From a virus, in the IMG/VR virus record IMGVR_UViG_3300021373_001348, positions 1 through 33,096 of that record: DNA of 33,096 nt, one strand, 5' to 3'. Positions 7,673 to 23,051 of the stretch are shown one piece after another (the first letter of the stretch is position 1; each line of letters opens with the position of its first letter). The notes under the pieces were generated by a model. The model saw only the letters and a program-made list of their open reading frames with translations, made no database searches and was not told where the DNA came from. A program made the translations under genes and the position numbers.

Positions 7673-7680
7673 TATTTATA
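7673..7680 (-). promoter_or_regulatory. T4-type late promoter TATAAATA
   Basis: An exact T4 late -10 octamer on the minus strand, 51 nt before the start of the barrel gene at 7622. Confidence 0.7.
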
Positions 7681-8175: not shown

Positions 8176-8302
8176 TGATTGTTTCCTTTTATTATTTTTA
8201 TACGTGTAAGCGGGGTGGGATTTTGTTGCTCACTAAGTAATTATCGTAAATTACAAGATATTTGTGTAGTTAAGAGTGTATTTTAGCTGATTTGCAGAAT
8301 AA

Positions 8303-8335
8303 TAAAAAAGAGTGTTACATCTCTGCAACACTCTT
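8303..8335 (-). terminator. Rho-independent terminator of the tmRNA gene
   Basis: On the minus strand a 9-bp perfect stem AAGAGTGTT/AACACTCTT (8327-8335 with 8308-8316), a 10-nt loop and a T-rich tail. It closes the tmRNA transcript and insulates the next barrel gene. Confidence 0.88.
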
Positions 8336-8624
8336 AATGCTATGTTTGGTAACAAGGTCTAACTACCTCGTAGTAGCCCTTAGGCTGCTAATGCGAAGTT
8401 TTCGTTTGCTTCTATTTGTTTTCTTGCGATAACCGTGCTTGCGCCGGGCAACTCCACTCTTCTACTAATCCGCCTGTCGATCCTAGTTCAGCCCCATCAA
8501 AAATACATTCTCAGTTTATCAGTCTGTTGCTTAGTGCTATACACCTAGCAGAATGTATTTTTGGTGGAGCTGTCGGGTACCGCCCCCGAGTCCAGCTCGT
8601 CGTTTGAATTGCTTCAACGTTACA
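8308..8624 (-). ncRNA. ssrA: Circularly permuted (two-piece) tmRNA
   Basis: Transcribed right to left, the acceptor piece comes first. T arm 8589-8573: stem UCGGG/CCCGA with loop GGCGGUA. The acceptor 3' strand CAGCUCC (8572-8566), discriminator A and an encoded CCA (8564-8562) follow. A 66-nt intervening segment (8496-8561) starts a 13-bp hairpin (8499-8511 with 8550-8562; its last pairing base is the terminal A of CCA). The coding piece begins GGGGCUG (8495-8489), pairing with CAGCUCC as a 7-bp acceptor stem, then AACUAGGAUCGAC. An H-type pseudoknot (CCG/CGG crossing GCG/CGC, 8447-8426) precedes the resume codon GCA (8409-8407). The tag reads ANENFALAA and stops UAA (8382-8380); it would follow the Ala carried by tmRNA. 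A small hairpin ACUAC/GUAGU follows. Permuted genes are known from alphaproteobacteria and some cyanobacteria; this tag is of proteobacterial type. The exact mature ends are unknown. Confidence 0.95.
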
Positions 8625-8630
8625 AGTATA

Positions 8631-8659
8631 TTTATAACACAGAAATTATTATATGTCAA
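8631..8659 (-). promoter_or_regulatory. Sigma70 promoter of the tmRNA gene
   Basis: On the minus strand TTGACA (8654-8659), 17 nt, then TATAAA (8631-8636) places the start near 8624, just before the acceptor piece. It overlaps the stop codon of the 8656-8982 gene. Confidence 0.8.
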
Positions 8660-8982
8660 CCTAAAATCAAATCCATAGCAAACTTTTTGTCTTCTATATC
8701 TTCGGCAGTTAAGCCCTTGTCTTCTTTTTTAGGCTTAATAGGTTCTAACCAACTGTCTGCAATGTATGCACGTGGTGATGGTCCAAGCATAATACTTAAA
8801 TCTTCTGCTTCAATCCACCAAAAGTTATCTGTAACAGCAGCCTGGCACATCATTCCGTTAAAATGAAAATGTGTACCTCTTTCAAAATGTCCAATAAGTT
8901 CAGCAACTTTTACAATGCGCCCAATGTTCTCAGGACGTACACTATATTTTATAACTGCTAAATCACCTTGTTTACATTTCAT
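8656..8982 (-). CDS. Unknown small soluble protein
   Basis: A 108-residue protein beginning MKCKQGDLAVIKYSVRPENI, a strand-rich start like small SH3/KOW-type barrel proteins that occur as hypotheticals in bacteria and phages. It contains a hydrophobic WWIEAEDLSI segment and an acidic-basic C-terminal tail. No catalytic motif is seen. It overlaps the preceding gene by 11 nt. The tmRNA promoter lies across its stop codon, so the two transcription units touch. Confidence 0.65.
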   Translation of the reverse strand: MKCKQGDLAVIKYSVRPENIGRIVKVAELIGHFERGTHFHFNGMMCQAAVTDNFWWIEAEDLSIMLGPSPRAYIADSWLEPIKPKKEDKGLTAEDIEDKKFAMDLILG

Positions 8983-20894: not shown

Positions 20895-21312
20895 GAAGCA
20901 CTGGCATCGAATAAATCGATTGCGAATATAATGCTTCAGGCAAGTCCTCCTTTGAAATAACACCATCTTTGTAGTTAACACATATGTCATCTACAAATAA
21001 TAGATAGTGTATTTCTGCCGTTTTATTGTTCGTACTGATATGTATCTCAAAATTACTACCACTAAACTTGTCTGTTAACTGTAGTGAAAAACACATTCCT
21101 AATACGACAGAGAACTCACAGTAGAGATTCTCTTCTAATAACTGCCAAGGATCGGGCCAAGTACTTTGACCCCAAGGATCAACAGTGTATCTAGTTTTAG
21201 GTGCAGAAGCATAAAACTCTACTACATCTAAAAACGGAGAATTAGAATCCTCAAGAGAAGACCTAAAATTGCTCCAGATGGCTAATCTTTCTTCATACTT
21301 TTTGTTATACAT
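20890..21312 (-). CDS. Unknown protein paired with the beta-helix fibre
   Basis: A 140-residue soluble protein, not recognised. It has Trp-rich stretches (VDPWGQSTWPDPWQLLEENL) and a strand-rich second half (FEIHISTNNKTAEIHYLLFV). Its start overlaps the fibre stop (TAATG), so it is translated with the fibre gene and may be a fibre chaperone, an attachment protein or an unrelated passenger. Confidence 0.7.
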   Translation of the reverse strand: MYNKKYEERLAIWSNFRSSLEDSNSPFLDVVEFYASAPKTRYTVDPWGQSTWPDPWQLLEENLYCEFSVVLGMCFSLQLTDKFSGSNFEIHISTNNKTAEIHYLLFVDDICVNYKDGVISKEDLPEALYSQSIYSMPVLQ

Positions 21313-23051
21313 TAAGACCTTGACGTTATAGTGTATGTTAAACTTGGAGGTGTTAATGAGCTTTCAGTAGTTGCATTTTTAAATTCAATGTATGCAGTAT
21401 CTACTGTTGTATCGTTTACATCTCCACTAGTTATATTAACAAGTTTTCCTCTAAATGTCAAGTTAATTGCGTTGCCATTGATGCCATTATCTAAACCTAT
21501 GAACTCAAAATCATCAGTTACAGATATTTCATCATTCTCTTTATCAATTAATATGTAAAGAGTGCCACGTCTTGTACCGTTTACCTGTGTTGAATTGTAC
21601 TGGTATGGTATATCAAATGATCTCGATTGATTTGCTGGAAGCCTAAATCCTGTTACCCAGTTTCCGTTTGTACTAATTGGTACAATACTGTGAACAAAAC
21701 TTTGGTTATAATTAAATAAACCTTCTACTTCTGGAATATATTTTGGACCATCTAAATCTAAGTTTGAGTTATTACTATTAGCGTTAGTAACATTAACGTA
21801 ATCTTGATTGTAACCTAAGTCATATGTTCTTTCGAACCAATCTTCAATCGTTTCGTTACCTATGGTATCAAACTTTATAATACTTGATGTTGTAGTTGCA
21901 CTTGTGCCGCCTGCATTACCAACATCAAAATACTTATTTCGCTTAGAAGTATTTGCCGTACCTTTATTAACAATAAAGCCTTGCTCAAATATTTCTCTAA
22001 ATGTACAATTTTCAAACAGTGTGTTGTTAGGACCGTATGCAACACCGTCACCTAGTTTATCAGCAAGGTCAGCGGCATCAGTATAGTCTACTACTGGCAT
22101 ACTGTTACCTAAACGCACACCGTTAAGTAAAGTTGAAAATGTAATATCTCTAAAAGTGTTATCTTCAATATCATAAGAACTGTTTACACCATATGCAAAT
22201 CCTTCGATATCAATGTTTTCAAACAAATTTCTTTTTGATCTAACTGCGCCACTAAAGCTCTTAATATTGATGCCTATTGAGTTTGCTTGTATTCCGTCGC
22301 CGTCCCAATAGCCTTTTAGTTTTAAGTCAAAAAAGTGTCCGTCTTCAACACTTTGAAGATCGATAGCAGTATTGTAAATATTTGAAACTGCATTTTCGTA
22401 TCTTAATGTCATTCCTGATATAGAAATATACTTTGCTTGGTTTGATGCACTTAACCCGCTAGTTTCATCATAGTTACCAACAGTACTTGAACCGTTTACT
22501 GTAACAAAGATCGGCGAGTTTGCTGTTTGTTCAATAATTGTTTTGTCTTTTCCAGAACCAACTAGTGTCGTGTAAGGTGGTAATTTAAGGCTTGAATCAA
22601 TTTTGTACAAGCCAGGCGCTAATTTAATAATGCGTCTGTTTTCAGGAGTTGTTTTAGTGTTTAAAAATAAATTATCAATTGCACGTTGTAGTGCAGCCGT
22701 TTGTATAACACTAGTATCATTTACTGCGCCAAAGTTTGAAACATAAACTTCGTCATCTAATCTTTGTTGTAGTGTTTTTCTAACTGGCGATCTTGCAGTA
22801 GCACCAGTTTGAATAATAGATTCGTTCTTTCTATATTCATACTGATCTGAGATATCAAAAATATTATCAGCTGAAGTAAGAATTTTTGTATTGCCAACTT
22901 GTGGTGCGCCTTCGCTTACTGATCCGTTACCAATATAAAGTTCCTGTGAGTCTATTGCCCACCCTAGTTCACCTGAAGCTAATTGAGGTAGATTTGTTTC
23001 ACCTTTTTTACCTCGTCTAACTTGTATTCTTGATATTTGTACTACAGCCAC
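21312..23051 (-). CDS. Tail fibre/spike with beta-helix domain
   Basis: A 579-residue protein. Start GTG (23049-23051) with AGGAG upstream. Residues 1-45 (IQVRRGKKGETNLP; ASGELGWAIDSQELYIGNG) are the same N-terminal fibre domain as in the giant protein. About 100-430 resembles a pectate-lyase-like beta-helix (VYVSNFGAVNDTSVIQTAAL start; LAPGLYKIDSSLKLPPYTTL), typical of spike proteins that bind or cut surface sugars. Catalytic residues cannot be assigned. Its late promoter CATAAATA (23079-23086) lies inside the last codons of the HNH gene. Confidence 0.82.
   Translation of the reverse strand: MAVVQISRIQVRRGKKGETNLPQLASGELGWAIDSQELYIGNGSVSEGAPQVGNTKILTSADNIFDISDQYEYRKNESIIQTGATARSPVRKTLQQRLDDEVYVSNFGAVNDTSVIQTAALQRAIDNLFLNTKTTPENRRIIKLAPGLYKIDSSLKLPPYTTLVGSGKDKTIIEQTANSPIFVTVNGSSTVGNYDETSGLSASNQAKYISISGMTLRYENAVSNIYNTAIDLQSVEDGHFFDLKLKGYWDGDGIQANSIGINIKSFSGAVRSKRNLFENIDIEGFAYGVNSSYDIEDNTFRDITFSTLLNGVRLGNSMPVVDYTDAADLADKLGDGVAYGPNNTLFENCTFREIFEQGFIVNKGTANTSKRNKYFDVGNAGGTSATTTSSIIKFDTIGNETIEDWFERTYDLGYNQDYVNVTNANSNNSNLDLDGPKYIPEVEGLFNYNQSFVHSIVPISTNGNWVTGFRLPANQSRSFDIPYQYNSTQVNGTRRGTLYILIDKENDEISVTDDFEFIGLDNGINGNAINLTFRGKLVNITSGDVNDTTVDTAYIEFKNATTESSLTPPSLTYTITSRS

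Follow-up and report, generated by a model that had tools for sequence, protein, structure and literature searches.

Phage-borne tmRNA genes are known in some number: the tmRNA database holds 79 bacteriophage sequences (PMC11915505), and 402 of 18,146 phage genomes were found to carry a tmRNA, with 53 of 133 distinct forms being of the two-piece kind and 50 of these 53 coming from marine or aquatic samples (PMC9004378). A two-piece tmRNA was described in the T4-like phage Melnitz, which was reported to have T4-like transcription genes and a glutamine riboswitch, and the role proposed for phage tmRNA was ribosome upkeep or the tagging of host proteins (PMC9004378). The Methylophilales phage Melnitz and the Pelagibacter phage Mosig (Kyanoviridae) are both T4-like marine phages with a permuted tmRNA, and that of Mosig is annotated as SsrA in its record. 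The published two-piece forms, Melnitz and the Mosig annotation refute one part of the original prediction, namely that a permuted tmRNA in a T4-like phage is barely described. Here we analysed a window of 33,096 nucleotides, which is positions 1 to 33,096 of the IMG/VR virus record IMGVR_UViG_3300021373_001348. Its minus strand contains, from about 8660 to 8300, a tmRNA gene that is complete and circularly permuted and conforms to the alphaproteobacterial type. This gene is real, well conserved, very probably functional and largely known in kind.

Identification and anatomy of the tmRNA gene

When the whole window was searched with Rfam, the locus matched the permuted tmRNA family RF04321 (tmRNA_permuted) at 8623-8380 on the minus strand with 103.3 bits (E 2.5e-19, gathering cut-off 47) and the family RF01849 (alpha_tmRNA) at 8674-8336 on the minus strand with 88.5 bits (E 6.3e-23, gathering cut-off 50), and no other RNA family matched anywhere in the window at E 0.5 or better. 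The original prediction of a permuted tmRNA, for which RF01849 had been named as the check, is thus upheld by two models far above their cut-offs, and the parts that it named were located on the minus strand, the pseudoknot as a pseudoknot-like element. A permissive grammar, consisting of a 5-bp T stem, NCCA, a 7-bp acceptor match and GAYCGAC, gave one match in the real window and none in 40 shuffles. ARAGORN missed the gene at default settings and returned a permuted tmRNA with the tag ANENFALAA when its threshold was set to 70% (-ps70). Since its defaults can miss permuted tmRNA genes, published counts may be low.

The acceptor (tRNA-3') piece, delimited by the RF04321 and RF01849 alignments, occupies 8562..8623 (minus strand, as for all parts of the gene given below). 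It starts with GTAACGTTGAAGC at 8623 and comprises the 5' strand of a helix with the coding piece, the T arm, the acceptor 3' strand and the encoded CCA; the stretch from the T arm to the CCA, GGACTCGGGGGCGGTACCCGACAGCTCCACCA, lies at 8593-8562, and its T loop GGCGGUA matches the consensus of the RF01849 model. The CCA is connected to the 5' end of the coding piece by an intervening transcribed segment of 66 bases (8496..8561), whose computed fold is a long hairpin of -16.8 kcal/mol and which is presumably cut out in maturation. The coding (mRNA-like) piece (8336..8495, the lower boundary being the end of the RF01849 match) opens with GGGGCTGAACTAGGATCGAC from 8495 and contains the acceptor 5' strand GGGGCUG and the D-loop GAUCGAC. 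The acceptor stem GGGGCUG/CAGCUCC forms seven pairs including G3.U70, the alanine identity pair. The tag frame GCAAACGAAAACTTCGCATTAGCAGCCTAA, found by ARAGORN with -ps70, lies at 8380..8409 and consists of the resume codon GCA, the codons for ANENFALAA and the stop UAA. It is followed by a 3' hairpin or pseudoknot-like element with an ACGAGGU/ACCUUGU stem (8348..8379) and by an intrinsic terminator with a 12-pair stem and a U run (8300..8335), which was found by a terminator scan. Inspection by eye suggests that the loop of the 3' element can pair upstream as in a pseudoknot. In its gene order, acceptor stem with G3.U70, GGCGGUA loop, CCA, GAUCGAC and tag ending in ALAA, the gene resembles the RF04321 and RF01849 families. 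It differs from them in being phage-borne and in having a short tag of nine residues that is absent from the alphaproteobacterial genomes searched.

Conservation of the locus as RNA

A pattern of T arm plus CCA was found in at least 120 stretches of IMG/VR, and parsing of the loci from all searches yielded 128 distinct viral tmRNAs, in which conservation was assessed. In the acceptor stem, all 896 of 896 cells are standard pairs, compared with a mean of 793 and a maximum of 810 when partners were shuffled. Pair 5 occurs as CG, GC, UA, AU or UG and pair 6 as CG, UA or AU, whereas pair 3 is G.U in 128 of 128. The five pairs of the T stem are likewise kept in 640 of 640 cells, a figure to be read with the fact that part of this stem was fixed by the search pattern. 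The intervening hairpin retains 951 of 1040 pair cells in 104 relatives, with many compensatory types (shuffle maximum 764). The 3' hairpin element with its pairing-competent loop is conserved in 30 sequences (12 distinct); the pseudoknot pairing of the original prediction, judged by eye, is a candidate. The predicted terminator of the gene's own is borne out, as all 30 sequences that belong to its 3' class have a terminator at the corresponding place even though the hairpin sequences differ. Together, these substitution patterns indicate that the tmRNA locus is selected as RNA. Apart from this, the viral tmRNAs at L139, L151, L200 and similar loci combine an unchanged promoter layout and 5' leader with varying T stems and T loops, the T loop of L151 being TTCAATT, of the canonical type.

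A conserved promoter that meets two consensus sequences

The promoter, TTGACA-N17-TATAAATA, was read in the sequence at 8629..8659 on the minus strand, with the -35 element TTGACA at 8659-8654 and the -10 box TATAAATA at 8636-8629. The promoter thereby fits the sigma-70 consensus, and its -10 box is also the T4 late box. A sigma-70 scan did not list this promoter because its rule requires T at the last -10 position; the prediction that the gene has a promoter of its own is nevertheless strongly backed by conservation among the relatives. The pattern TTGACN-N15..19-TATAAAT precedes the gene in 76 of 128 distinct relatives, compared with 0.035 expected from shuffles. The spacer measures exactly 17 in 71 of those relatives, and TATAAAT is followed by A in 71 of 71; since TATAAAT was imposed by the pattern, the independent signal consists only of this last A and the 17-nt spacing.

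Ordinary T4 late promoters have no -35 element. The tmRNA promoter shares with them the exact 8-base box and differs in carrying TTGACA 17 nt upstream. Three TATAAATA boxes are present in the window, one of them just before the presumed start of the tmRNA. The other two, at 7680 (minus strand) and 31804 (plus strand), each lie 40-60 bases 5' of an open reading frame, have no good -35 element and resemble ordinary T4 late promoters. Where TATAAATA boxes stand 5' of other genes, the -35 element is mostly lacking, a perfect one being found in 1 of 10. The hybrid form with both elements occurs in one or two copies each in Melnitz, the window, G007 and the related contig G002, one copy in each being the tmRNA promoter; the related contig G008 is an exception, its single copy standing at a different gene. 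The Melnitz tmRNA promoter was called early, early promoters there being sigma-70 predictions (PMC9004378). Its sequence contains the T4 late box as well, in a TTGACA-N17-TATAAATA layout identical to that of the window. Because the promoter fits the consensus of host sigma-70 and also that of T4 late promoters, the tmRNA gene could be read, and its RNA supplied, both early and late in infection. TATAAA also matches five of six positions of the sigma-70 -10 element, so that a pure host promoter is possible. As far as the literature was surveyed, no account was found of a phage tmRNA gene read both early and late. New here is the dual-consensus promoter common to most relatives, Melnitz included.

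Tag peptides and permuted tmRNAs in isolated phages

The exact 30-base frame encoding ANENFALAA and UAA was found in 35 viral contigs. A search of 84,980 species genomes of bacteria and archaea gave the same frame in 11 stretches, which belong to Clostridia (Fusibacter among them), spirochaetes and Victivallis, and in no alphaproteobacterium; it required UAA plus all nine residues, and near variants in hosts could escape it. That this exact tag is viral and absent from the alphaproteobacterial genomes searched is also new. Among the relatives the tag sequence is variable, and its end is nearly always LAA or a close variant. The suggestion that the tag is a degron chosen by the phage gains limited support from its absence from the alphaproteobacterial genomes searched, but its end is the ordinary ALAA degron. 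Viral permuted tmRNAs with very long tag frames, of about 29-31 residues (for example AKATINNGEFTFVNFGALNDFAVNEDFALAA), were observed at L031, L033, L037, L049 and L119. Tags ending in NCK, which appeared among the relatives, were rejected as a wrong-frame artefact of the pattern.

RF04321 also matched in the isolated phages Mosig, HTVC008M, V10, DSS3P8, RcXuper and Bajun. In HTVC008M (KC465899.1, 145161-145370; locus L262), V10 (L258), RcXuper (L259) and DSS3P8 (L260), the matches score 90-112 bits, over the Rfam cut-off, at sites where no tmRNA is annotated. The tags and promoters of these four differ from those of the window, the tags being ANFNEYALAA in HTVC008M, ANINNAPMEMAIAA in V10 and DSS3P8, and ANENFAPMEMRLAA in RcXuper. 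Melnitz and Mosig likewise have tags other than the ANENFALAA of the window, that of Melnitz being ANDNYVPVDYALAA.

Genomic context and phage affiliation

Directly upstream of the tmRNA lies a gene for a protein of 108 aa (8656..8982, minus strand), whose stop codon is overlapped by the -35 element of the tmRNA promoter. Its 80 viral homologues mostly stand directly 5' of a tmRNA: with the first pattern, the acceptor-arm motif was found downstream on the same strand in 53 of the 80, and about a dozen further homologues have the motif with other T-stem pairs. No match to the 108-aa protein was found in isolated phages or in Pfam. This neighbour sets the window apart from Melnitz and Mosig, where the tmRNA adjoins the gene for a late-transcription coactivator. 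Gene order is shared with the window, mostly on both sides of the tmRNA, at L055, L111, L125, L131-L134 and L144-L147. Because these flanking genes are common to several independent viral contigs from different metagenomes, the locus is not chimeric, contrary to the possibility of a chimeric assembly that the original prediction had itself raised.

The ribonucleotide reductase subunits encoded in the window are nearest to those of marine T4-like phages (Kyanoviridae, cyanomyophages), at 65-73% identity, and the window also encodes a tail-fibre protein of 2116 aa and an endolysin. The related contigs G002 and G008 have curli-pore and cyclase genes in common with Melnitz, at up to 65% identity. 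At L283, on G002, the genes in common with Melnitz are those for the curli pore, FecR and the cyclase, and they tie the lineage to T4-like phages of OM43 and SAR11. Searches for the capsid protein (gp23) and for the Melnitz terminase gave no match in the 33-kb fragment or in related fragments, a result that carries little weight for genome fragments, the capsid search having had no positive control. That the phage is T4-like is thus well indicated, though not proven: the ribonucleotide reductase and accessory genes favour the label used in the original prediction, but neither a capsid nor a terminase gene turned up in the fragment. The glutamine riboswitch reported for Melnitz (PMC9004378) had no match in the window. 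A separate protein of 579 aa (21312-23051, minus strand), in which a Major tropism determinant N-terminal domain is combined with a pectate-lyase-like domain, is a possible receptor-binding protein.

Alternative explanations and proposed function

IMG/VR may include some host fragments and the tmRNA has the form known from alphaproteobacteria, so that a bacterial ssrA on a host contig or chimeric assembly might have been misread as viral. This is exceedingly unlikely given that the gene order around the tmRNA recurs in independent viral contigs and that the window has phage ribonucleotide reductase, tail-fibre and endolysin genes. Nor does the locus look like a host ssrA captured recently, or an integration scar, carried as functionless passenger DNA. 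Integration is common at tmRNA genes, and fragments can be taken along when excision is imprecise (PMC9004378), but the gene here is complete with promoter and terminator, compensatory changes have kept its acceptor stem fully paired in 128 viral sequences, its context is stable among relatives, and its exact tag is in no alphaproteobacterial genome searched; we consider such a capture very unlikely.

The RNA might also act as a decoy that inhibits host trans-translation, occupying SmpB, EF-Tu or ribosomes without tagging, as was suggested for the phage DS6A, whose tag-less form, on expression, had an inhibitory effect on the E. coli tmRNA (PMC11915505). Here, by contrast, the gene has an intact tag frame, stop codon and resume site, and nearly all relatives encode a tag with LAA or a close variant at its end, so that this role appears improbable.

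In all likelihood, the locus is a functional phage ssrA gene that serves trans-translation together with host factors. Gene anatomy, structural conservation, shared context and promoter conservation are demonstrated; processing, charging, timing and benefit are proposed here from the parts identified. A single precursor would be transcribed from the TTGACA-N17-TATAAATA promoter and end at the terminator. After excision of the intervening hairpin by host tRNA-processing enzymes, the acceptor and coding pieces would stay together through the acceptor stem and one further helix, and the host alanyl-tRNA synthetase would charge the molecule via G3.U70. A search of 11 related records gave no SmpB gene, and host SmpB is therefore probably used; with EF-Tu of the host, it would deliver the tmRNA to ribosomes that have stalled on broken mRNAs. 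Translation would resume on the tag frame, adding A-ANENFALAA and stopping at UAA, with the ribosome freed and the product marked for proteases of the ClpXP type. By this scheme the phage would have the RNA available in both the early and the late phase, as host DNA degrades and cleaved messages accumulate. A bolder proposal, which we put forward only tentatively and regard as rather doubtful, is that a marine T4-like lineage runs its own trans-translation through all of infection, with the dual promoter and an un-hostlike short tag replacing host tagging after the loss of host DNA.

Our data show that a broad group of marine phages has the permuted tmRNA as a stable gene under selection rather than as a stray capture. 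With the conserved dual-consensus promoter, the question of when and why these phages need a ribosome rescue of their own becomes directly testable in phage-host pairs that can be cultured, for example Melnitz with OM43.
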